Shown here: positions 35,545 to 48,403 of the stretch, piece by piece
How the letters are laid out: each line of letters begins with the position of its first letter
Position numbering within the stretch: position 1 is the stretch's first letter
The notes under the pieces: model-generated
Seen by the model: only the letters and a program-made list of their open reading frames with translations
Database searches by the model: none
What the model was told of the DNA's origin: nothing
Translations under genes and position numbers: made by a program
Origin: Phreatobacter stygius
GTDB taxonomy: Bacteria > Pseudomonadota > Alphaproteobacteria > Rhizobiales > Phreatobacteraceae
Assembly (NCBI RefSeq): GCF_005144885.1
Contig: NZ_CP039690.1
Span: forward strand, 4,229,001 to 4,293,000
DNA: 64,000 bases
Reading direction: 5' to 3'

Positions 35545-36975
35545 TCAGGCCGCGCGCCTGACTGCCCAGCGTTCGGCATCCGGATCCTGGCCGATCAGTG
35601 CCAGGCCATAGGCGATCGATTCGAACTGGTCGGTATTGGTCAGTCGCTCCTCGCCGAAGCGCTGGACGAACAGCTTGCGGATCGCCGGCACGAAGGAGGT
35701 GCCGCCGGTCAGGAACACCCGCTCGATCGCGCTCTCGCCGACGCCCGAACGCGCCAGCACCTCGTCGACCGTCTCGGCGATGCGTGCCACGTCGGGCGCG
35801 ATCCAGGCCTCGAAATCGCGCCGGGTGATGGTCGCCTGAATGTCGACGTCATATTCGACGAAACGGAAGGCTGCGGTTTCCGCGGTCGAGAGCGTCATCT
35901 TGGCGGCCGATACGGCGCGGTAGAGCGCCAGCCCGAGATCGTAATCGACGACATCGATGAACTTGTGCAACTGGCCCGGCTCGAGCGCCACTTTGGCGAG
36001 ATCCTGCAGGCCCTTGAGGTCGCCGTTGGTCTTCATCATGGCGAGCTGATGCCAGCGCGCCAGGTTGGCGTAATAGTGGCTCGGGATGGTCAGCAGCTTG
36101 TCGAAGGAACGGTAGCTCGAGCCCTTGCCGAGCCGGGGCGAGACCACCCGGTCGACGATGCGATAGTCGAAGGTGTCGCCGGCAATGCCGACGCCGGCAT
36201 GACCGAGCGGTTCGGCGCGCAGGGCGCCGCCCGAACGCTCGAAACGCATGACCGAGAAATCGCTGGTGCCGCCGCCGAAATCGGCGACCAGCACGGTCGC
36301 ATCATGGTCGAGCTTGCTGGCATAGAAGAAGGCGGCACCGACCGGCTCGTAGACATAGGTGGTCGTCGCCGCGCCGAGCTTGCCGAAGGCGGTGGCATAA
36401 CGCTCCATCGCCAGCCCGTCATTGGGATGGCTGCCGGCGAATTTCACCGGCCGGCCGATGACCAGCCGGGCGCCCTGGAAGTCGAGGCCGCCATTGCCGT
36501 GGCTGACGAGGGTGTCGAGGAAAGCCGAGAGCAGATCCTCGAACCGGTAGCGGGCGCGGAAGATCCGGGTCTCCTGGAAGCTGGCGCTGGCCGCAAAGGT
36601 CTTGAACGACTGGATGAAGCGATGGGCCGACGTGCCGGCGAGCAACTGGTCGATCGCCCAGGGACCGCCTTCGATCCGAAGGCGCGGGACGCCGGTGCCC
36701 TTGCGTTCTTCCCAGAAGCACAACGCGGTGACGAAGCCGCTGAGGCGCTGGCTGCCATGGTCGAAACTGATGACCTCGGCCCGGCCATCCGGCGTGGCGA
36801 TGGCGACGACGGTATTGCTGGTGCCGAAATCGACGCCGATCGAAATATCTTGCGGGCGGGCGGACAAGGCGGACGCATCCTGAGGCCGGAGAGCGGCCGG
36901 CCCGATTAGCCGATGTCGGCCGACAAGGCCAGCGGCAAGTCCCGATCGCAAGTTCGTCCCGACAGATAGGCGCAA
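35545..36975 (-). CDS. Hsp70-family ATPase (YegD-like)
   Basis: Up to 476 residues, shorter than DnaK because only the actin-fold ATPase is present. ATP-phosphate loops are clear: ISIGVDFGTSNTVVAIATPDG (about 45-65), VLVADFGGGTSDFSVMRFE and VFLTGGTSFVPAIRKLFVQRFGEE; a substrate-binding beta domain is missing. YegD-type proteins are chaperone-like ATPases of unclear role. The first 40 residues look poorly conserved, so the real start may be inside the frame. It is convergent with the DMFase-like gene and divergent from the hydroxyacid genes; no functional link is evident. Confidence 0.85.
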   Translation of the reverse strand: MRLSVGTNLRSGLAAGLVGRHRLIGPAALRPQDASALSARPQDISIGVDFGTSNTVVAIATPDGRAEVISFDHGSQRLSGFVTALCFWEERKGTGVPRLRIEGGPWAIDQLLAGTSAHRFIQSFKTFAASASFQETRIFRARYRFEDLLSAFLDTLVSHGNGGLDFQGARLVIGRPVKFAGSHPNDGLAMERYATAFGKLGAATTTYVYEPVGAAFFYASKLDHDATVLVADFGGGTSDFSVMRFERSGGALRAEPLGHAGVGIAGDTFDYRIVDRVVSPRLGKGSSYRSFDKLLTIPSHYYANLARWHQLAMMKTNGDLKGLQDLAKVALEPGQLHKFIDVVDYDLGLALYRAVSAAKMTLSTAETAAFRFVEYDVDIQATITRRDFEAWIAPDVARIAETVDEVLARSGVGESAIERVFLTGGTSFVPAIRKLFVQRFGEERLTNTDQFESIAYGLALIGQDPDAERWAVRRAA

Positions 36976-37076
36976 TGCATTTCGGCGGGTCGCCCGGCGC
37001 AGGTGCCGGCCCTAGAACGGGAGGACCGGCTTCGGGCGGCGATCCGCCGAAGCCACCTGTTCCGAGGAGCGCTGCC

Positions 37077-38237
37077 ATGTGGGGTGCATCGGCCCGATCC
37101 CTGGCGAAGGCGGCGTCCATCGCCGATCTGCGCGTGCTCGCCCGGCGGCGGCTGCCGAAAGCGGTGTTCGACTTCATCGATGGCGCGGCCGGCGACGAGA
37201 CGACGCTCGCCGACAATCAGGCGGCCTTCGGCGACTGGCAGCTGATGCCGCGGGTCGGCGTCGATGTCAGCCGGCGCGATCTCGGCGCCGACTTCCTCGG
37301 CCGCGCCGCCAAATTGCCCCTGATGTTGTCACCGACCGGGCTCACCGGCTTCTTCTGGCCGCATGGCGAGATCGCCGCGGCGCGCGCCGCCGGCAACCGG
37401 GGCATCCCGTTCTGCCTCTCGACCAATTCGGTCGCCGCGCTCGAACAGGTCGCCGAGGCCGCGCCCGACACCGACCTCTGGTTCCAGCTCTATGTCATGC
37501 GCGACCGCGGCCTGACCGATCAACTGGTCGCCCGCGCCGCCGCTGCCGGCTACCGGGTGTTGTGCATCACCGTCGACCTGCCGCTCACCGGCCGACGCGA
37601 GCGCGACGTCCGCAACGGTTTCACCATGCCGTTGAAGCCGCGCCTGTCGAACATGCTGGATCTGGCGCGCCGGCCCGGCTGGCTGTTGGGGGTGATGCGC
37701 GCGCCGCCGACCTTCGGCAATTTCAAGACCGACAATGCCTCGGGCTTCACCAATATCGCCCAGCATGTCAGCACGCTGTTCGATCCGTCGGTGACCTGGG
37801 ACGACATCGCGCGGTTGCGACGGCTCTGGAAGGGACCGGTGGCGATCAAGGGCATCCTGCATCCCGACGATGCCCGCATGGCGGTCGACATCGGCGCCGA
37901 CGCGGTGATCGTGTCCAATCACGGCGGCCGCCAGCTCGACCACGTGCCGGCACCGATCACCGCGCTGCCCGACATTGCCGAAGCCGTCGGCGAAAGGGCC
38001 CAGCTGATCGTCGACAGCGGCGTGCGCCGCGGCACCGACATCCTCACCGCCCGCGCGCTCGGCGCCGTCGGCTGCAGCATCGGACGCCCGTTCCTGTGGG
38101 GACTGGCCAGCGCCGGCGAGGCTGGCGTCGACCATGCCATCAAGCTGCTGGCCGCCGAGATCGACATTGCCATGGCGCTGCTCGGCACGGCGAGCCTCGA
38201 CGCCATTACCGCCGATCACCTGCGCCGGCGGCGCTGA
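37077..38237 (+). CDS. FMN-dependent alpha-hydroxyacid dehydrogenase (LldD/glycolate-oxidase family)
   Basis: A 386-residue TIM-barrel flavoenzyme that oxidises an L-2-hydroxyacid to the 2-oxo acid. LPKAVFDFIDGAAGDETTL begins the barrel, LMLSPTGLTGFF and WFQLYVMRDRGLTDQLV bind FMN, VLCITVDLPLTGRRERDVRNGF follows, and the catalytic His282 is in VSNHGGRQLDHVPAPITALPDI; IVDSGVRRGTDILTARALGA binds the FMN phosphate. The ATG at 37077 has GAGGAG upstream. It begins a three-gene run of 2-hydroxyacid oxidoreductases. Confidence 0.9.
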   Translation: MWGASARSLAKAASIADLRVLARRRLPKAVFDFIDGAAGDETTLADNQAAFGDWQLMPRVGVDVSRRDLGADFLGRAAKLPLMLSPTGLTGFFWPHGEIAAARAAGNRGIPFCLSTNSVAALEQVAEAAPDTDLWFQLYVMRDRGLTDQLVARAAAAGYRVLCITVDLPLTGRRERDVRNGFTMPLKPRLSNMLDLARRPGWLLGVMRAPPTFGNFKTDNASGFTNIAQHVSTLFDPSVTWDDIARLRRLWKGPVAIKGILHPDDARMAVDIGADAVIVSNHGGRQLDHVPAPITALPDIAEAVGERAQLIVDSGVRRGTDILTARALGAVGCSIGRPFLWGLASAGEAGVDHAIKLLAAEIDIAMALLGTASLDAITADHLRRRR

Positions 38238-38256
38238 AATCAACACGAGACCGATC

Positions 38257-39219
38257 ATGAAACCCTATTCCGTCCTGGTCGCCTGCCAATTGCCCGAAGC
38301 GGTCGAACGCGACCTCGCCAGCGCGCTCGACGTCGACTTCATGCCCGATGCCAGGCAGCGTCCCGTCGCCGAGCTCGTCGCCCGTCTGGACGGCCGCGAC
38401 GCCCTGCTGCTGCTGGCCATGACGCCGGCGGATGCCGCGCTCATCGAGGCCCTGCCGGCCTCGGTCAAGGCGATCGCGACCTATTCGGTCGGGCTCGACC
38501 ATATTGACCTGGCGGCCGCCCGCAAGCGTGGCATCGCCGTGCTGCACACGCCTGACGTGCTGACCGACGCAGTGGCCGAGACCGCGTTGCTCCTGCTGCT
38601 GGGGGCGGCCCGGCGCGCCACCGAGAGCATCGATCTGGTCCGCTCCGGTGCCTGGCAGGGCTGGACGCCGACCCAGCTGATCGGGGTCGAGCTATCAGGC
38701 AAGACCCTCGGCATTCTCGGCATGGGGCGGATCGGCCGCGGCATCGCCGAGCGCGCCCGGGCCTTCGGCATGACGATCTGCTACCACAACCGCTCGGCGT
38801 TGCCGCCGGACCTCGCCAAGGGCGCGGTCCACCACGCCGATGCCGTCGAGTTTCTCGGCGCGATCGATGCGCTGGCGATTGCCTGTCCGCTGACGGAGGC
38901 GACGCGCGGTTTCCTCGATGCCGAGCGGATCGCGGCGATGAAGCCGGGCGCCATCGTCGTCAATATCGCCCGCGGCCCCGTGATCGACGACGATGCGCTG
39001 ATCGCCGCCTTGCAGAGCGGCCATGTCAGGGCGGCGGGCCTCGATGTCTTCACCAACGAACCGAAGCTCGACCCGCGTTATCTCAACCTCGGCAATGCTT
39101 TCCTGCTGCCACATATCGGCAGCTCGACGGTCGAGAGCCGGCGCGCCATGGGCCGGACGCTGATCGACGGTTTTGCCGCGCTCGCCGCCGGCCGGAACCC
39201 GGACAACCGGGTGGTTTGA
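38257..39219 (+). CDS. D-isomer-specific 2-hydroxyacid dehydrogenase
   Basis: A 320-residue NAD(P)-dependent enzyme interconverting a D-2-hydroxyacid and a 2-oxo acid. Landmarks: IATYSVGLDHIDLAAARKRGI (74-93), the Rossmann loop LGILGMGRIGRGIAERARAFG (GMGRIG at 155-160), ACPLTEATRGFLDAERIAAMKPGAIVVNIARGPVIDDDAL with the substrate Arg, and the Glu/His pair in FTNEP and LLPHIGSSTVESR. The ATG at 38257 is 19 bases after the FMN enzyme stop. Glyoxylate/hydroxypyruvate reductase-like specificity is the best guess. Confidence 0.9.
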   Translation: MKPYSVLVACQLPEAVERDLASALDVDFMPDARQRPVAELVARLDGRDALLLLAMTPADAALIEALPASVKAIATYSVGLDHIDLAAARKRGIAVLHTPDVLTDAVAETALLLLLGAARRATESIDLVRSGAWQGWTPTQLIGVELSGKTLGILGMGRIGRGIAERARAFGMTICYHNRSALPPDLAKGAVHHADAVEFLGAIDALAIACPLTEATRGFLDAERIAAMKPGAIVVNIARGPVIDDDALIAALQSGHVRAAGLDVFTNEPKLDPRYLNLGNAFLLPHIGSSTVESRRAMGRTLIDGFAALAAGRNPDNRVV

Positions 39220-39241
39220 GCAGCGGGTTCGGAACCAGGCC

Positions 39242-40210
39242 ATGCGATATTCCAAGGAGCGTGCACGGCAACTGGCGTGGCGCGCCGCGATGGGTGCCGG
39301 GGCGAGCCATGCCGCCGCGGCATCATTGGCGGATGCGACGGTCGCGGCGGAACTCTCCGGACGCGGCGCGGTCGGATTCGCGCATCTTCTCGACTATCTC
39401 GAAGGCTTCGTCGCAGGTCGTATCGCGGGCGGGGCTGAACCCGATATCGGCTTTCCGACTCCCGCGATCATCCGGGTCGATGCCAAGGGCGGCATCGCCC
39501 AGCTCGGTTTCGATCTGGCGTTCGACGAATTGCGCGCCCGCGCGGACCTCTATGGCATGACGGTCTTTGCGCAGGAGAACAGCTATACGGCAGGCGAATT
39601 GGGCTATTACACGCGGCGCCTCGCCAATGCCGGACTGGTCGCGCTTGCCGCCTCCAATGGACCGGCCTTGATGACAGCGGGCGCGAGCCGCGCGCCGGTC
39701 TATGGCACCAACCCCCTGTCCTTTGCCGCTCCGGTCGAGAACGGGCGTCCCTTGGTTGTCGATCAGGCCTCGAGCGCGACAGCCTTCGTCAACGTCAGGT
39801 GCGCGGCGGACAATGGCGAGGCGATTCCCGAAGGCTGGGCGGTCGACCGGAACGGCCAGCCCACCACCGATGCGCGCGAGGCCGTCAAGGGCCTGCTTCT
39901 CGCCTTCGGCGGCGCGCGGGGCGCCAATATCGCGCTGATGGTCGAAATTCTCGCGGCAGGGCTGACCGGCGCGAATTGGTCCTGTGACGCCCCGTCCTTC
40001 GCGGCTGGGAGCCGATCGCCAGGCGTCGGACTGTTCATCGTCGGGCTGAAAGCCGATGTCTTCGCACCCGGATTTTCGGCACGGCTGGCGTCGCAGATCG
40101 AGCGCCTCGCCGCCCAGGGAATTCATATTCCCGGCCGAAGTCCTGATACGGGCGACGTGGAACTGCCCGGGTCGCTTGTCGCCGCCATCGAGCAATACGG
40201 CAAATCCTGA
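39242..40210 (+). CDS. Ldh2-family (malate/L-lactate/ureidoglycolate DH) protein, catalytic His replaced
   Basis: A 322-residue member of the NAD(P)-dependent type-2 malate/lactate dehydrogenase fold, recognised by GFPTPAIIRVDAKGGIAQLGFDLAFDEL, ANAGLVALAASNGPALMTAGASRAPVYGTNPLSFAAPV and the late IHIPGRSPDT. The catalytic motif of the family, NSxHfGaaGYY, reads NSYTAGELGYY at residues 113-123, so the catalytic His is Thr116. The N-terminal RGHxSHG-type motif reads GRGAVGFAHLLDYL. The protein may have a changed activity or be non-catalytic. It starts 22 bases after the D-hydroxyacid dehydrogenase gene and is the third in the operon. Confidence 0.78.
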   Translation: MRYSKERARQLAWRAAMGAGASHAAAASLADATVAAELSGRGAVGFAHLLDYLEGFVAGRIAGGAEPDIGFPTPAIIRVDAKGGIAQLGFDLAFDELRARADLYGMTVFAQENSYTAGELGYYTRRLANAGLVALAASNGPALMTAGASRAPVYGTNPLSFAAPVENGRPLVVDQASSATAFVNVRCAADNGEAIPEGWAVDRNGQPTTDAREAVKGLLLAFGGARGANIALMVEILAAGLTGANWSCDAPSFAAGSRSPGVGLFIVGLKADVFAPGFSARLASQIERLAAQGIHIPGRSPDTGDVELPGSLVAAIEQYGKS

Positions 40211-40569: not shown

Positions 40570-42168
40570 ATGTCCGAATCAGAGATGTCACCGATGAGCA
40601 GGCGCAACCTGCTGAACCTGATCGGGACTGCCGCCGGCGGCGCCGCGATGTACCAGGCGATGACCAGCCTCGGGCATGCGGCTGAATCGACCTATACCGG
40701 GCCGATCAAGCTCGACGGCGATCCCAAGGGCGCCTCCGTGCTGATCCTCGGCGCCGGCCTCGCCGGGCTGGTTGCCGCGCTGGAGCTGCGCAAGGCCGGC
40801 TACAAGGTCCAGGTGCTCGAATATCACGAGCGCGCCGGCGGCCGGAACTGGACGCTGCGCGGCGGCGACAAGTTCACCGAGCTCGGCGGCATCGAGCAGA
40901 AATGCGAATTCGAGCGCGGCAACTACATCAATCCCGGCCCGTGGCGCATCCCCTACAATCACCACGCGATCCTGGATTATTGCAAGCGGCTCGGCGTCGC
41001 CATGGAGCCCTTCGTCCAGGTCAATTACAACGCCTATATGCACAACAAGGACGCTTTCGGCGGCAAGCCGCAGCGCTTCCGGCACATCTATTCCGATTTC
41101 CAGGGCGGCGTCACCGAACTGCTGTCCAAGGCGGTCAACCAGGACAAGCTGGAAGAGGCGGTGACCAAGGAGGACAAGGAGGTCCTGCTTGCGGCGCTGC
41201 GCCAATGGGGTGCTCTCGACGCGAATTACAAATATGCCAAGAACGGCCTGACCAGCGACCGCCGCGGTTATGACCGCGATCCGGGCGGCGGCCTGAGCGG
41301 CGAGCCCGTCAACTCCGAGCCGTTCAGCTTCAAGGACGTGGTGAAGTCCAGGCTGTGGAACCGCATGCAGACCGGCGGTGTCTATGAATTCCAGTCGGCG
41401 ATCTTCCAGCCGGTCGGCGGCATGGACATGATCGCCAAGGCGTTCCAACGCGAGGTCGGCCGGCTGATCAAGTTCAACGCCAAGGTCACCACCATCAAGC
41501 AGGACAATCGCGGCGTTACCGTCACCTATGTCGATGCCAAGAAGGGCGGCCGGCCGCAGACGGCAACCGCCGACTATTGCCTGTGCACCATCCCGCTTTC
41601 GGTGTTGTCGCAGATCGACATCAATGTCGGCTCGGCGATGAAAGCGGCGATCGACGCGCCGCCCTATGCCGCGTCGATCAAGATCGGCCTGCAGTTCAAG
41701 CGCCGGTTCTGGGAAGAGGACGAGCAGATCTACGGCGGCATCAGCTATACCAACCTGCCGATCGCGATGATCCAGTACCCCTCGTCGAACTTTTTCAGGA
41801 CCGGCAAGGGCGTGTTGCTCGCAGCCTATACGTTCGGCGCCAATGCCTATGAATGGACCGCACTGCCGCCGGCCGAGCGGTTGAAGAAGGCGGTCGAGTT
41901 CGGCGCCCAGATCCATCCTCAGCAATATCAGAAGGAGTTCGAGAACGGCATTTCGGTGGGCTGGCACCGTGAGCCGGCGACGCTCGGCTGCTACGCCGTG
42001 TGGACCGATGCTGCGCGCAAGCAGCACTACAACAATCTCTGCGCCATGGACGGGCGGATCATGCTGGCCGGCGAGCACGCTTCCTACCTGCCGGCCTGGC
42101 AGGAAGGCTCGGTGCTCTCCGCGCTGGATGCCATCTCGCGCTTGCACAAGCGTGTCGTGGCCCGCTGA
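40570..42168 (+). CDS. Tat-exported flavin amine oxidase/dehydrogenase
   Basis: A 532-residue FAD protein of the monoamine/L-amino-acid oxidase family. A twin-arginine signal SRRNLLNLIG (residues 10-19) and LGHAAES cleavage region show export to the periplasm. Dinucleotide-binding VLILGAGLAGLVAALELRKAGYKVQVLEYHERAGGRNWT (57-95) and the C-terminal FAD motif GRIMLAGEHASYLPAWQEGSVLSALDAI are intact. FQPVGGMDMIAKAFQREVG is typical of the substrate-domain hinge. The ATG at 40570 has GGGAGCGAAA upstream. Coupling to a cytochrome c suggests electrons go to the respiratory chain rather than to oxygen. The substrate amine is unknown. Confidence 0.88.
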   Translation: MSESEMSPMSRRNLLNLIGTAAGGAAMYQAMTSLGHAAESTYTGPIKLDGDPKGASVLILGAGLAGLVAALELRKAGYKVQVLEYHERAGGRNWTLRGGDKFTELGGIEQKCEFERGNYINPGPWRIPYNHHAILDYCKRLGVAMEPFVQVNYNAYMHNKDAFGGKPQRFRHIYSDFQGGVTELLSKAVNQDKLEEAVTKEDKEVLLAALRQWGALDANYKYAKNGLTSDRRGYDRDPGGGLSGEPVNSEPFSFKDVVKSRLWNRMQTGGVYEFQSAIFQPVGGMDMIAKAFQREVGRLIKFNAKVTTIKQDNRGVTVTYVDAKKGGRPQTATADYCLCTIPLSVLSQIDINVGSAMKAAIDAPPYAASIKIGLQFKRRFWEEDEQIYGGISYTNLPIAMIQYPSSNFFRTGKGVLLAAYTFGANAYEWTALPPAERLKKAVEFGAQIHPQQYQKEFENGISVGWHREPATLGCYAVWTDAARKQHYNNLCAMDGRIMLAGEHASYLPAWQEGSVLSALDAISRLHKRVVAR

Positions 42169-42207
42169 TCCTTCGTCATTTCCCTAATGGTTCCAGAGGG
42201 TTTCACC

Positions 42208-42618
42208 ATGATCCCGTCATTCCAAACGTCGCTGAAGATCGGCCTCACCGCCGCCGTGCTGGTCGCCGGGGCAACCGCCGCCCTGTCGCAGTCCTCGGCG
42301 CTGTTCTCGAGCCCCGCCCGCTTCGCCTATCAGGACGGCGAATCGATCTATCGTTATGTCTGCGCGGGCTGCCACATGCCCGAAGGCCGTGGCGCCATCG
42401 GCGCCGGTGCCTATCCGTCGCTGGCCAACAATGCCAAGCTCGAGGCCGGGGGCTATCCGGTCTATCTGGTCGTCAACGGGCAAAAGGCGATGCCGGGTTT
42501 CGCCAATCAGCTCAACGACGGCCAGGTCGCCGCGGTGGTCAATTATATCAGGAGCAATTTCGGCAACCGCTATACCGACCAGGTCAGCGCCGACGACGTC
42601 AAGGCCGCGCGCCAATAG
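42208..42618 (+). CDS. Periplasmic c-type cytochrome
   Basis: A 136-residue monohaem cytochrome with a signal peptide (residues 1-28). Haem attachment CAGCH is at 52-56, and the likely axial Met95 is in GQKAMPGFANQLNDGQVAAVVNYIRSNFGN, the class I C-terminal helix. The ATG at 42208 is chosen over one at 42187 because AGAGGG lies before it and the signal peptide begins there. It lies 39 bases after the amine-oxidase gene and is the probable electron acceptor of that enzyme, as known for nicotine oxidoreductase and its cytochrome partner. Confidence 0.9.
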   Translation: MIPSFQTSLKIGLTAAVLVAGATAALSQSSALFSSPARFAYQDGESIYRYVCAGCHMPEGRGAIGAGAYPSLANNAKLEAGGYPVYLVVNGQKAMPGFANQLNDGQVAAVVNYIRSNFGNRYTDQVSADDVKAARQ

Positions 42619-42670
42619 GCGCGGCCGGGCCGGGTGGGCTTCTGGCCCAGCCGGTCTATCGACCACGATG

Positions 42671-42697
42671 GGGCATGGGCCTGAAACGGCCATGCCC
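42671..42697 (+). other. Intercistronic hairpin
   Basis: GGGCATGG..CC (42671-42681) pairs with GGCCATGCCC (42688-42697) just before the RidA ribosome site (AAAAGGAG). No T-run follows, so a role in RNA processing or stability is more likely than termination. Confidence 0.4.
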
Positions 42698-42726
42698 GCG
42701 TTTGATTCCATGAAAAGGAGTAATCC

Positions 42727-43230
42727 ATGTTCCGCAAGACGAGTTTCGTTCTGACGCTTGCCGCTTCGCTGATCGCCGCCGCCGGCGTCGCCAGTGCCCA
42801 GGATGTCACCCGCCATCGCACGCCCGGCTCGACCTTTCCGATCGCCGCGGCGGTCGAGGTGCCGGCCGGCCGCACCACGGTCTATGTCAGCGGCATGGTG
42901 CCGACGGTGACCAACGAGCAGGCGCCGCGCAACAGCCTGGCCGCCTTCGGCGACACCAAGGCCCAGACCGTGACCGTGCTGCAGGCGATCGAGCGGACAC
43001 TGCAGCGGCTCAACCTGCAGATGAAGGACGTCATCAAGATGCAGGTCTTCCTGGTCGGCGACCCGACCAAGGAAAACCGCATGGACTTCGCCGGCTTCAT
43101 GGAGGGCTACACCCAGTTCTTCGGCACGCCGGCGCAGCCGAACCTGCCGTCGCGTTCGGTCATGCAGGTTGCCGGCCTGGTCAATCCGGGCTGGCTGGTC
43201 GAGATCGAAGTGACCGCGGTTCGTCCCTGA
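42727..43230 (+). CDS. Secreted RidA-family imine deaminase
   Basis: A 167-residue RidA/YjgF protein with an N-terminal Sec signal (MFRKTSFVLTLAASLIAAAGVASAQ, residues 1-25), unlike the cytosolic RidA. The catalytic-type Arg143 (PSRSVMQVAGL) and Glu160 (WLVEIEVTAVRP) are conserved, as is DVIKMQVFLVGD. RidA hydrolyses reactive imines to ketones and ammonia. Its export and position after an exported amine oxidase and cytochrome strongly suggest that it acts on the imine made in the periplasm. AAAAGGAG precedes the start. Confidence 0.88.
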   Translation: MFRKTSFVLTLAASLIAAAGVASAQDVTRHRTPGSTFPIAAAVEVPAGRTTVYVSGMVPTVTNEQAPRNSLAAFGDTKAQTVTVLQAIERTLQRLNLQMKDVIKMQVFLVGDPTKENRMDFAGFMEGYTQFFGTPAQPNLPSRSVMQVAGLVNPGWLVEIEVTAVRP

Positions 43231-43510: not shown

Positions 43511-43957
43511 ATGCACATCCTCGCCATTCTGGTGGTCCTGCTTCTCGGTGGCGGGCAAAGCCGCGCGATGAGCGGTCTGAGTTGCACGGTTGACGACCGG
43601 GACCTGAAGCTCGAGGTTTCGAGCGGGCTGAACGGGGCGGGCGGCGGGCTGTTCGAATTCGGTGGCGAACTCCAGCTCCTTCAGCCGTCCGCCCCGACCG
43701 ATTTCCGCAAACTGACCCTCGGTGCAGGCCAGGTCATGCAAAGCTGGCTGAGCCGCGAAGAGCTCAAGCTCGAACTTTATTGGGAGCGTCCGGCCGGGCG
43801 TTATGGGTTTCTTCGGATCGTGATCGAGACGAGAGCCATTGAGGAAGCCTCCTACCGGGGCAGTTATGTCCTGACCACCTATCAAGCCGCGGCCGACAGC
43901 GATGCCGCGCCCGTGCAAACCGAAACGCGCGGAGCCGCCTCCTGCTCGGTGGGATGA
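43511..43957 (+). CDS. Putative secreted protein, unknown
   Basis: A 148-residue frame with a short Sec-type signal (MHILAILVVLLLGGGQSRAM, 1-20) and a mainly beta-rich mature part (LKLEVSSGL, ELKLELYWERPAGRYGFLRIVIETRAI, YRGSYVLTTYQ). Two cysteines (25 and 146) could form one disulphide joining the ends. No family is recognised. It stands alone between the RidA gene and the convergent fumC, separated from both by more than 150 bases, with a bidirectional terminator after it. Confidence 0.55.
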   Translation: MHILAILVVLLLGGGQSRAMSGLSCTVDDRDLKLEVSSGLNGAGGGLFEFGGELQLLQPSAPTDFRKLTLGAGQVMQSWLSREELKLELYWERPAGRYGFLRIVIETRAIEEASYRGSYVLTTYQAAADSDAAPVQTETRGAASCSVG

Positions 43958-46099: not shown

Positions 46100-48403
46100 A
46101 TGACACGATCCGGCACTGCGACGCTGTGCGCGTCGGTTTCCATTTTGTTTCTGGCACTGGCGACGGCGGCAGCTCTCGCTCAGGCGACCGCGCCGTCGCG
46201 CGCCGAGACCGAGGCGGCGAGGGCAGCCAATGTGTCTTCGGCCGACGAGATCACGGTCACCGCCACCCGCGAGGAGCGTCAGCGGTTCGATGTGCCGGCC
46301 AATATCTCGGTCATCTCGCGCCAGCAGATGGATGACCGGGCCACCCGCGACATCCAGGACCTGGTCCGCTACGAACCGGGTGTCAGCGTCGACCGGGTCA
46401 CGACAGGCACCGATCCCTGGCACAATCTCGGCGGCTTCACCATTCGTGGCGTCACCGGCAACCGCGTGCAGATCCGTGTTGATGGCGCCCGCGTCATGGA
46501 GCGCATCACCGACGGCACCCGTGACCTCGTCGACCTGCCCTATATGAGATCGGTCGAGATCATGCGCGGGCCGGGTTCGGTGCTGTGGGGCGCCGACGCG
46601 CTCGGCGGCATCGTCGCTTTCCGTACCCTCGATCCCGACGACCTGCTGCGCGGCAAGGGCAGGCCCTGGGCGGTGCGGCTGCAAACCTCTTACGACAGCC
46701 TGGACCAGGCCTTCGTCAAGACCGGCATGACCGCCATCCAGTTCAGCCCGGTCCTGCAGGGCATCTTCGTGCTCAGCCAGAGAAGTGCCCAGGCCGCGAG
46801 CCTGTCGACGGCGCAGGCCAATGGCGGGATCTGGGGCTGCCCAGCGATCCGCGCGCTCGCCTGCAACGAACTCGATCCGCTCAATTCCAGCACCTGGAAC
46901 GGCTTTGCCAAGCTGATCTGGCGGCCGGCGGACAATCACGAAGTGCGCCTTGTCGCGGAAGCCTTCAACCGCAATACGACGGTCGACCAGCGTTATGACT
47001 TTGGTCAGACCGTTTCGGTGTCCGGCGCCCCCCACCGCAACGGCCAATATCTGCGCAACCAGGTCCTGGGCCGGCAGAACTTTGCCATTGCCCATGACTG
47101 GACCCCGCACTGGGGCTGGATCGACGCGGTGCGCTGGAACGTCTCCTATTCGCCGCAGAGCCGCATGCTCGACAGCAACCGCTATCAGCTGAACCTGAAC
47201 ACCAACCAGCAGCGGCGTACCAATGCGATCCTGAACTATCAGGAGAACTTCCTGCAGGGCGAGGTTCAGCTGACCTCCCGCTTCAACCTCGGCCCGGCCC
47301 AGCACATCCTGACCTATGGCTTCCAGGGCGACACCACCAAGACCGACTATTTCCGCCAGGACACGGTGATCAACGCCACCACCGGCAACCTCATTTCGGT
47401 CACCAGGGGTTCGGGTTTCAATTTCGCCAATGCCAATACGACGCGGGCGGATCTCTATCTCCAGGACGAGATCCAGCTGTTCGACGGCCGCTGGACCATC
47501 ACGCCGGGCCTTCGCTGGGCCAATTACACCATCGATCCCCGGCCTGATGTCAACTACAGGCCGGTGCCGGGCGTCGAGCCGCGGCAGATTTCGTCGAGCC
47601 GTTTCATCCCGCAGCTCGGCTCGGTGTTCAAGCTGACCGATATCTATTCGGTCTATGCGCGTTATGCCGAAGGCTTCAAGATGCCGACGGCGCAGCAGCT
47701 CTACCTGTCCCTGCCGGGCGGCGCCGGCGGCGGCGGCAGCCTTGTTCCCAATCCCAATCTTCGGCCTGAATCGGCCAGGTCCTACGAGGCTGGTTTCCGC
47801 GGCCGGTTCGAACGCGGCTGGTTCTCGGTGGGGGCCTTCTACACGACCTACAAGGACTTCATCCTGGCCTTCCAGCCGCCGTCGCCCGGTTCGATCGACC
47901 TCACCAACACCAATGTCTCGGCGGTGACGATCTACGGTGTCGAAGCCTCGGCCCAATACCGGATCACCGACGACCTGATCCTCAATGGCGGCCTGTCCTA
48001 TCAGTTCGGCGAACAGCGGGCGACGCCGACATCGGCCAAGGTTGCCTTTGATGCGATCATGCCACTGACCGCCACTGTCGGGCTGCGCTGGTTCAAGCGC
48101 GAGTGGAATATCGACGGCGAGGTGCTGGCGAGCTTTGGCGCGCCGATCGGCCGCACCAGCGCGCCGAACATCTACAAGCCCGGCGGCTATGCGGTGTTCG
48201 ACAGCTTCATCAACTGGCGCCCGACCGCCAACCTGACGCTGCGCGCCGGTGTCCAGAACATCTTCGACACCCGCTATTTCCAGAACCTCTACGGCAATTA
48301 CACCAACACGCCGGCATCCGCCGCGGTGGCCCAGACCAACCCGCTCGAACTGCAGGTCGCGCCGGGCCGGACCTTCAAGCTTTCTGCGACCGCCGACTTC
48401 TGA
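46100..48403 (+). CDS. TonB-dependent receptor, haem/haemoglobin type
   Basis: A 767-residue outer-membrane receptor. The signal peptide ends near residue 29 (AAALAQA). The TonB box is EITVTATREE (about 50-59), the plug has LVRYEPGVSV..GFTIRGVTGNRVQIRVDGAR and MRGPGSVLWGADALGGIVAF, and a 22-strand barrel ends FKLSATADF. The haem-receptor FRAP/NPNL pair is present as FKMP and NPNLRPE, but the conserved His between them is absent. A HemS-like gene follows. The C-terminal aromatic residue is normal. Confidence 0.9.
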   Translation: MTRSGTATLCASVSILFLALATAAALAQATAPSRAETEAARAANVSSADEITVTATREERQRFDVPANISVISRQQMDDRATRDIQDLVRYEPGVSVDRVTTGTDPWHNLGGFTIRGVTGNRVQIRVDGARVMERITDGTRDLVDLPYMRSVEIMRGPGSVLWGADALGGIVAFRTLDPDDLLRGKGRPWAVRLQTSYDSLDQAFVKTGMTAIQFSPVLQGIFVLSQRSAQAASLSTAQANGGIWGCPAIRALACNELDPLNSSTWNGFAKLIWRPADNHEVRLVAEAFNRNTTVDQRYDFGQTVSVSGAPHRNGQYLRNQVLGRQNFAIAHDWTPHWGWIDAVRWNVSYSPQSRMLDSNRYQLNLNTNQQRRTNAILNYQENFLQGEVQLTSRFNLGPAQHILTYGFQGDTTKTDYFRQDTVINATTGNLISVTRGSGFNFANANTTRADLYLQDEIQLFDGRWTITPGLRWANYTIDPRPDVNYRPVPGVEPRQISSSRFIPQLGSVFKLTDIYSVYARYAEGFKMPTAQQLYLSLPGGAGGGGSLVPNPNLRPESARSYEAGFRGRFERGWFSVGAFYTTYKDFILAFQPPSPGSIDLTNTNVSAVTIYGVEASAQYRITDDLILNGGLSYQFGEQRATPTSAKVAFDAIMPLTATVGLRWFKREWNIDGEVLASFGAPIGRTSAPNIYKPGGYAVFDSFINWRPTANLTLRAGVQNIFDTRYFQNLYGNYTNTPASAAVAQTNPLELQVAPGRTFKLSATADF

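Follow-up and report, generated by a model that had tools for sequence, protein, structure and literature searches.

A probable periplasmic L-amino-acid deamination unit with a signal-bearing Rid protein in Phreatobacter stygius

Most work on Rid proteins concerns their role as cytoplasmic guards of pyridoxal phosphate (PLP) enzymes. Why, then, would a bacterium equip one of them with an export signal and encode it behind a flavoprotein and a cytochrome c? The question is raised by a locus of Phreatobacter stygius within the 64,000-nucleotide stretch analysed here (the window; contig NZ_CP039690.1, positions 4,229,001 to 4,293,000), which holds the following three genes (positions are those of the window):

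40570..42168, + strand: lao, flavoprotein of the L-amino acid oxidase (LAAO) type with a twin-arginine translocation (Tat) signal, 532 residues, putative L-amino acid dehydrogenase (SRRNLL motif, PF01593, match to 2jae)
42187..42618, + strand: cccA-like gene, monohaem cytochrome c with a Sec signal (CAGCH motif, PF13442)
42727..43230, + strand: ridA of the cluster, predicted Rid3-like imine hydrolase with a Sec signal, 167 residues (PF01042, matches to 9bka and 9bkc)

The three open reading frames (ORFs) are co-directional and intact, with no internal stop (40570-43230), and their motifs agree with an earlier reading made from the letters of the DNA (the sequence-only reading), which described three adjacent co-directional genes bearing export signals, Tat for the flavoprotein and Sec for the other two. 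We consider it probable that the trio forms a periplasmic L-amino-acid deamination unit: an LAAO, a cytochrome that accepts its electrons, and an exported Rid that hydrolyses its imine product. The proposal draws on gene order, motif-level export signals, family resemblance, residue conservation and co-occurrence; the roles of the cytochrome as acceptor and of the Rid in imine hydrolysis are suggested by those of their relatives.

Do the three genes belong together? We collected the best 80 of 240 relatives of the Rid in one scan of genome contigs; the set is biased because every locus was found through its Rid, and 25 of the 80 loci are titled Xanthomonas. LAAO, cytochrome and Rid genes recur in the same order and on the same strand at 66 of the 80 loci, an association beyond chance; the conservation of the neighbourhood, which the sequence-only reading had named as a point to check, is thereby borne out. 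Ten other loci (nine cyanobacteria and one gammaproteobacterial metagenome genome) carry LAAO and Rid without a cytochrome match; no CxxCH ORF stands beside the LAAO in any of the ten, and at one of them (L044) a single short CxxCH ORF lies some 3.5 kb downstream, on the opposite strand. That the Rid stays with the LAAO at these ten loci is what would be expected if its target were the imino acid. LAAO is absent from the other four: L062 is a 5.4 kb contig, L081 has its Rid at a contig edge, L112 has its Rid close to the end of a contig, and at L072 (Xanthomonas codiaei) the Rid stands next to no more than a 31-residue match to the end of the cytochrome, in what by its sequence looks like a decayed cluster.

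A Rid-seeded survey of 385 genomes of the window's class (E-value limit 1e-15, no more than 9 candidates scored in any genome) found the Rid in 11 genomes, with LAAO in 10 and cytochrome in 8 of them within the stretch read. The arrangement varies: the trio order is present in 4 of the 11, Rid and LAAO are separated by a TonB receptor in G311 and G215, the Rid comes first in G054, and it is on the opposite strand in G139. Among 11 other genomes of the window's genus only G003 has a close Rid, and the unit is therefore patchy.

What does the flavoprotein oxidise? The sequence-only reading called it an amine oxidase. It matches PF01593 (E 9.9e-57), and its top solved sequence relative is the Rhodococcus opacus LAAO (2jae; E 2.1e-95), which is also the closest match in fold: the AlphaFold2 model of the flavoprotein (pLDDT, the predicted local distance difference score, of 87) superposes on 2jae with E 1.4e-52, a root-mean-square deviation of 1.8 A, template-modelling scores of 0.86/0.95 and 37% identity in the fold alignment, and human MAO-A enters only at rank 43 among the 50 matches listed. 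LAAOs grip the substrate carboxylate with an Arg and a Tyr, which are Arg90 and Tyr372 in Calloselasma (C.) rhodostoma (PMC6149928; here and below, statements on papers cited by PMC accession refer to the portions of them available to us). Arg126 and Tyr420 of the flavoprotein correspond to chain positions 83 and 370 of the R. opacus enzyme, so that the carboxylate Arg/Tyr positions are the same, the alignment running through the R. opacus LAAO and not directly to the snake residues. Lys371, which we take to occupy the place of the flavin lysine of the flavin amine oxidase (FAO) superfamily, is identical in 72/72 aligned rows, as are Tyr420 and Trp510; Arg126 is identical in 71/71 rows, all those whose reading frame holds at this position (that of L065 does not). 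The 72 rows are the window and 71 of the 76 LAAO-bearing loci, L058, L099, L101, L104 and L108 being omitted for reading frames that were short or unfound.

By sequence and modelled fold, the flavoprotein is a member of the FAO superfamily of the LAAO type, not a generic amine oxidase. As it is LAAO-like and keeps the Arg/Tyr pair that binds an alpha-carboxylate, its substrates are likely L-amino acids, with an imino acid as the product released. Plain amines, the substrates of enzymes such as NicA2 and MAO, were dropped as candidates, since fold and residues indicate an LAAO. Of the earlier assignment, the exported flavoenzyme stands and the substrate class does not, and the parallel that it drew with nicotine oxidoreductase suits the electron acceptor and not the substrate class. 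We know of no cytochrome or Rid partner of the R. opacus LAAO, unlike the window LAAO.

Where would the electrons go? The gene directly downstream of the flavoprotein encodes a cytochrome that matches PF13442 (E 1.5e-12) and has, after its hydrophobic signal, the CAGCH haem site that had been recognised before; both haem Cys, the His and a candidate Met ligand, Met102, are common to 67/67 cytochrome rows. From the sequence, its true start may be the ATG at 42208, with GAGGG ahead of it, instead of 42187. The cytochrome and Rid genes are 108 bases apart; a promoter scan detected nothing, and the 3 terminator-like sites found are about equal to the yield from shuffled sequence. A Tat signal together with a neighbouring cytochrome c is reported to predict that an FAO enzyme is a dehydrogenase with that cytochrome as its acceptor (PMC12224317). 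NicA2-CycN, Pnao and the other dehydrogenases of that study resemble the window in combining a Tat-signal FAO with a neighbouring Sec-signal cytochrome c, and they differ from it in being relatives of NicA2 and not of the LAAO type; the term 'RidA' is absent from the main text of the study.

The association with cytochrome was examined independently of the Rid in an LAAO-seeded survey of the same 385 class genomes (E-value limit 1e-60, no more than 3 candidates scored in any genome), which found 19 genomes. LAAOs with at least 42% identity (n=9, window included) have an adjacent cytochrome in 9/9 cases and a Rid within 3 kb in 8/9, whereas those at 40% identity or less have a cytochrome in 0/10 (1.5 kb read on each side) and a Rid nearby in 2/10 (G304, adjacent; G052, 3.4 kb off); the other eight genomes with distant LAAOs are absent from the 11 Rid-bearing genomes, which by their handles come from the same sample. 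Fisher tests of close versus distant LAAOs, uncorrected for relatedness, give p values of 1.1e-5 for cytochrome and 0.0055 for Rid. A tree was built from 46 LAAO rows after thinning at 85% identity; its root and depth are unsure, and part of its L065 row is out of frame. In it, 33/34 cytochrome-linked rows form one clade (100/99) and 11/12 cytochrome-less rows form another group (100/99), the twelfth being the R. opacus LAAO. The G054 LAAO, which has a cytochrome, groups with the R. opacus LAAO by a join flagged for a long branch. As a side observation, L041 and L071 are titled Mycobacterium or Mycobacteriaceae, yet their LAAOs sit among proteobacterial rows, and their taxon labels may therefore be wrong.

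These results bear on whether the LAAO is instead a periplasmic oxidase that uses O2, with the cytochrome serving another purpose such as peroxide removal. The closest solved relatives of the flavoprotein do carry oxidase names, and most of the assayed Tat-signal FAOs without a cytochrome as neighbour react quickly with O2, one being an exception (PMC12224317). We nevertheless regard an O2-using enzyme as distinctly unlikely here, because the cytochrome accompanies all of the close LAAOs and none of the distant ones, recurs in most of the Rid-seeded loci, and follows a single LAAO clade with one outlier. As the Rid occurs with both cytochrome-linked and cytochrome-less LAAOs, the imino acid is a likelier target for it than the cytochrome is.

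What kind of Rid is it? The protein matches PF01042 (E 4.1e-18), and its top PDB relatives in both sequence and fold are PSPTO_3006 (9bka) and PFL_1385 (9bkc), which are classed as Rid3 (PMC5619798). The mark of Rid3 is an Ile in place of RidA Tyr17 (PMC4433059), and Ile39 of the window Rid aligns with Tyr17 of TdcF; by sequence, the window Rid is Rid3-like. Ile39, Ser55, Arg143 and Glu159 are invariant in 80/80 Rid rows. Arg143 had been named before as a retained RidA residue, rightly; the Glu had been placed at 160, which is an Ile, and the conserved Glu is Glu159, aligned with Glu120 of TdcF. PFL_1385 and PSPTO_3006 lower semicarbazone formation from LAAO-made imines of Leu, Gln, Phe, Met and His, the rate for Phe being 3 with either Rid3, 16 with RidA and 21 without Rid (PMC5619798, Table 4).

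The Rid could also bind to the LAAO as a structural or activating subunit instead of working as a free imine hydrolase, after the manner of the M-alpha/M-beta LAAO complex of Chlamydomonas. A periplasmic Chlamydomonas LAAO complex with a RidA-type M-beta subunit is cited in PMC5053998, and a figure legend of PMC10805672 has LAO1 and LAO2/RIDA drawn in the periplasm. A purely structural part would not need Arg143 and Glu159, which never vary, and we hold this reading to be unlikely; the roles of LAAO-bound subunit and imine hydrolase are in any case compatible.

Is the Rid exported? The flavoprotein begins with the SRRNLL twin-arginine motif followed by a hydrophobic stretch, and an RRxLL-like Tat motif is present at 73/76 LAAO loci, the misses (L065, L104 and L108) being broken or cut reading frames. 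The Rid opens with a Sec-type N-terminal signal of about 24 residues, MFRKTSFVLTLAASLIAAAGVASA, and N-terminal extensions of at least 22 residues are found at 79/79 loci of Proteobacteria and cyanobacteria where a start was found (L081, for which none was found, is left out). A simple signal rule is passed by 70/79 Rids and 60/66 cytochromes, and by 21/126 background flanking ORFs with uncurated starts; the nine failing Rids were read by eye as probable effects of start choice. Some Rids, e.g. those of L071 and L113, have lipobox-like cysteines. PFL_1385 also opens with a signal-like stretch in the alignment, like the window Rid; the words 'signal' and 'periplasm' are absent from the paper on these Rid3 proteins (PMC5619798).

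The contrary case, that the signal does not function and the Rid is cytoplasmic, agrees with the usual view of Rid proteins as cytoplasmic, and we found no export experiment on such a Rid in the open-access literature. Extensions at every locus with a start, a pass rate far above background and the lipobox-like cysteines make it most improbable.

Taken as a periplasmic deamination unit, the trio would work as follows. The LAAO-type flavoprotein would be exported folded via Tat and would abstract a hydride at the alpha-carbon of an L-amino acid; the neighbouring cytochrome c would reoxidise the reduced FAD in two one-electron steps and pass the electrons on to terminal oxidases; and the exported Rid3-like protein would hydrolyse the imino acid to 2-keto acid and ammonia, keeping the imine from accumulating or reacting in the periplasm. 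The combination of exported flavoenzyme, cytochrome acceptor and exported imine hydrolase had been put forward in the sequence-only reading and is still the best-supported account of the locus; its substrate class and its claim to novelty had to change. Genetic data from Gluconacetobacter diazotrophicus support this account: with two Tn5 insertions in lao, indole-3-acetic acid (IAA) was absent, indolepyruvate was low and unmetabolised tryptophan stood out as a large peak, and earlier work cited in the same paper had ccm mutants at 5% of the IAA (PMC5053998).

Several points weigh against this account. The terms 'LAAO' and 'amino acid oxidase' are absent from the main text of PMC12224317, and applying its cytochrome rule to LAAOs is therefore an extrapolation. 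The lao Tn5 insertions also reduced the cccA and ridA transcripts (PMC5053998), and so cannot separate the three roles. In a figure title of PMC5619798, rescue of a ridA mutant is credited to RidA and Rid1 proteins only. Export was judged from motifs and a simple rule of our own, not from SignalP. The genes can also part company: G187 bears the Rid with neither LAAO nor cytochrome in the 12.5 kb read, and G226, which is missing from the 11 Rid-bearing class genomes, has a close LAAO-cytochrome pair with no Rid up to 1.5 kb away. Finally, the indolepyruvate decarboxylase family reached only sub-cut-off matches in this genome, as in all 14 control genomes, which leaves auxin production by this organism unsupported.

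How new is such a unit? The lao-cccA-ridA cluster of G. diazotrophicus PAL5 (GDI2456-2454), published in 2016 (PMC5053998), is like the window trio in gene types and order by its published description; its LAAO has a Tat signal like that of the window and was likened by its authors to the R. opacus LAAO. Quantitative reverse-transcription PCR suggested a single operon, the organisation was reported to be conserved in Caulobacter crescentus and Xanthomonas species, and the authors already proposed the cytochrome and RidA as helpers of the LAAO (PMC5053998). The gene trio and nearly the same hypothesis are thus already published. In the available portion of that report the periplasm is assigned to the LAAO only and RidA export is unreported, whereas the window Rid bears a signal. 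The Chlamydomonas LAO1 and LAO2/RIDA system has clustered genes and an extracellular or periplasmic LAAO with RidA, like the window; unlike it, the system is eukaryotic and H2O2-releasing, with no cytochrome mentioned in the portion available (PMC10805672). PMC9537276 deals with a RidA-family protein of a chitin pathway, its neighbouring enzymes being described as cytoplasmic, and PMC7688666 with a Rid6 in a nicotine cluster; the available portions of these two papers describe no exported Rid. We found no description of an exported bacterial Rid in the open-access literature, in which the recurrent export of this Rid, also without a cytochrome, seems to be undocumented. The novelty that had been claimed for a periplasmic RidA is accordingly narrowed: exported bacterial Rid proteins are still little described in that literature, but the trio in G. 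diazotrophicus and a periplasmic LAAO/RIDA pair in Chlamydomonas are already on record.

The surroundings of the trio contain these further features:

35545-36975, - strand: short Hsp70-type protein, 476 residues (best NCBIfam match PRK11678, below its cut-off)
36975-40210: three co-directional dehydrogenase genes upstream of the trio, of FMN-dependent 2-hydroxyacid, D-2-hydroxyacid and Ldh_2 types
43511-43957: ORF of 148 residues shortly after the Rid gene (unmatched in Pfam and NCBIfam at E 0.001)
46100-48403: TonB-dependent receptor, passing the cut-offs for TIGR01786 (haemoglobin/transferrin) and TIGR01785 (haem receptor)

The first two upstream dehydrogenases are kept at the same-genus locus L131 (= G003), separated from its trio by about 4.4 kb of other DNA; for the Ldh_2 gene there is no match in the L131 stretch compared, and we claim no functional link between these genes and the trio. 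The TonB-dependent receptor has a 90%-identical counterpart in L131, lying to the same side of the trio there, and such receptors lie near the LAAO unit in L060, L071, L123, L125 and L127, between Rid and LAAO in L123 and L125. They may hint at an imported substrate, which raises the case that the substrate is a larger or modified amino compound and not a free proteinogenic L-amino acid. Receptors near the unit in 5/19 loci with listed flanks (Pfam-confirmed, only 10 flanking proteins having been sent) and a haem-type receptor about 3 kb downstream of the trio in both the window and L131 speak for such a compound; the retained alpha-carboxylate Arg/Tyr pair and LAAO fold speak for an ordinary amino acid, and we judge a modified substrate to be quite unlikely.

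Beyond this locus, we lean slightly towards a broader proposal: that a family of exported Rid3 imine hydrolases serves envelope L-amino-acid oxidation in Proteobacteria and cyanobacteria, staying with the LAAO whether the latter has a cytochrome partner (and would be a dehydrogenase) or none (and would be an oxidase). Periplasmic imine control would then be the constant need while the electron acceptor changes, and the LAAO branch would add another lineage to the cytochrome-c-dependent dehydrogenases of the FAO superfamily. A Rid exported beside an imine-making enzyme would indicate that imines are a problem or a bottleneck in the periplasm too, where the usual PLP targets of Rid proteins are not expected. 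A cytochrome-linked LAAO would tie extracytoplasmic amino-acid deamination directly to respiration, yielding ammonia and keto acids, and auxin in one bacterium, by a path that need not release H2O2.

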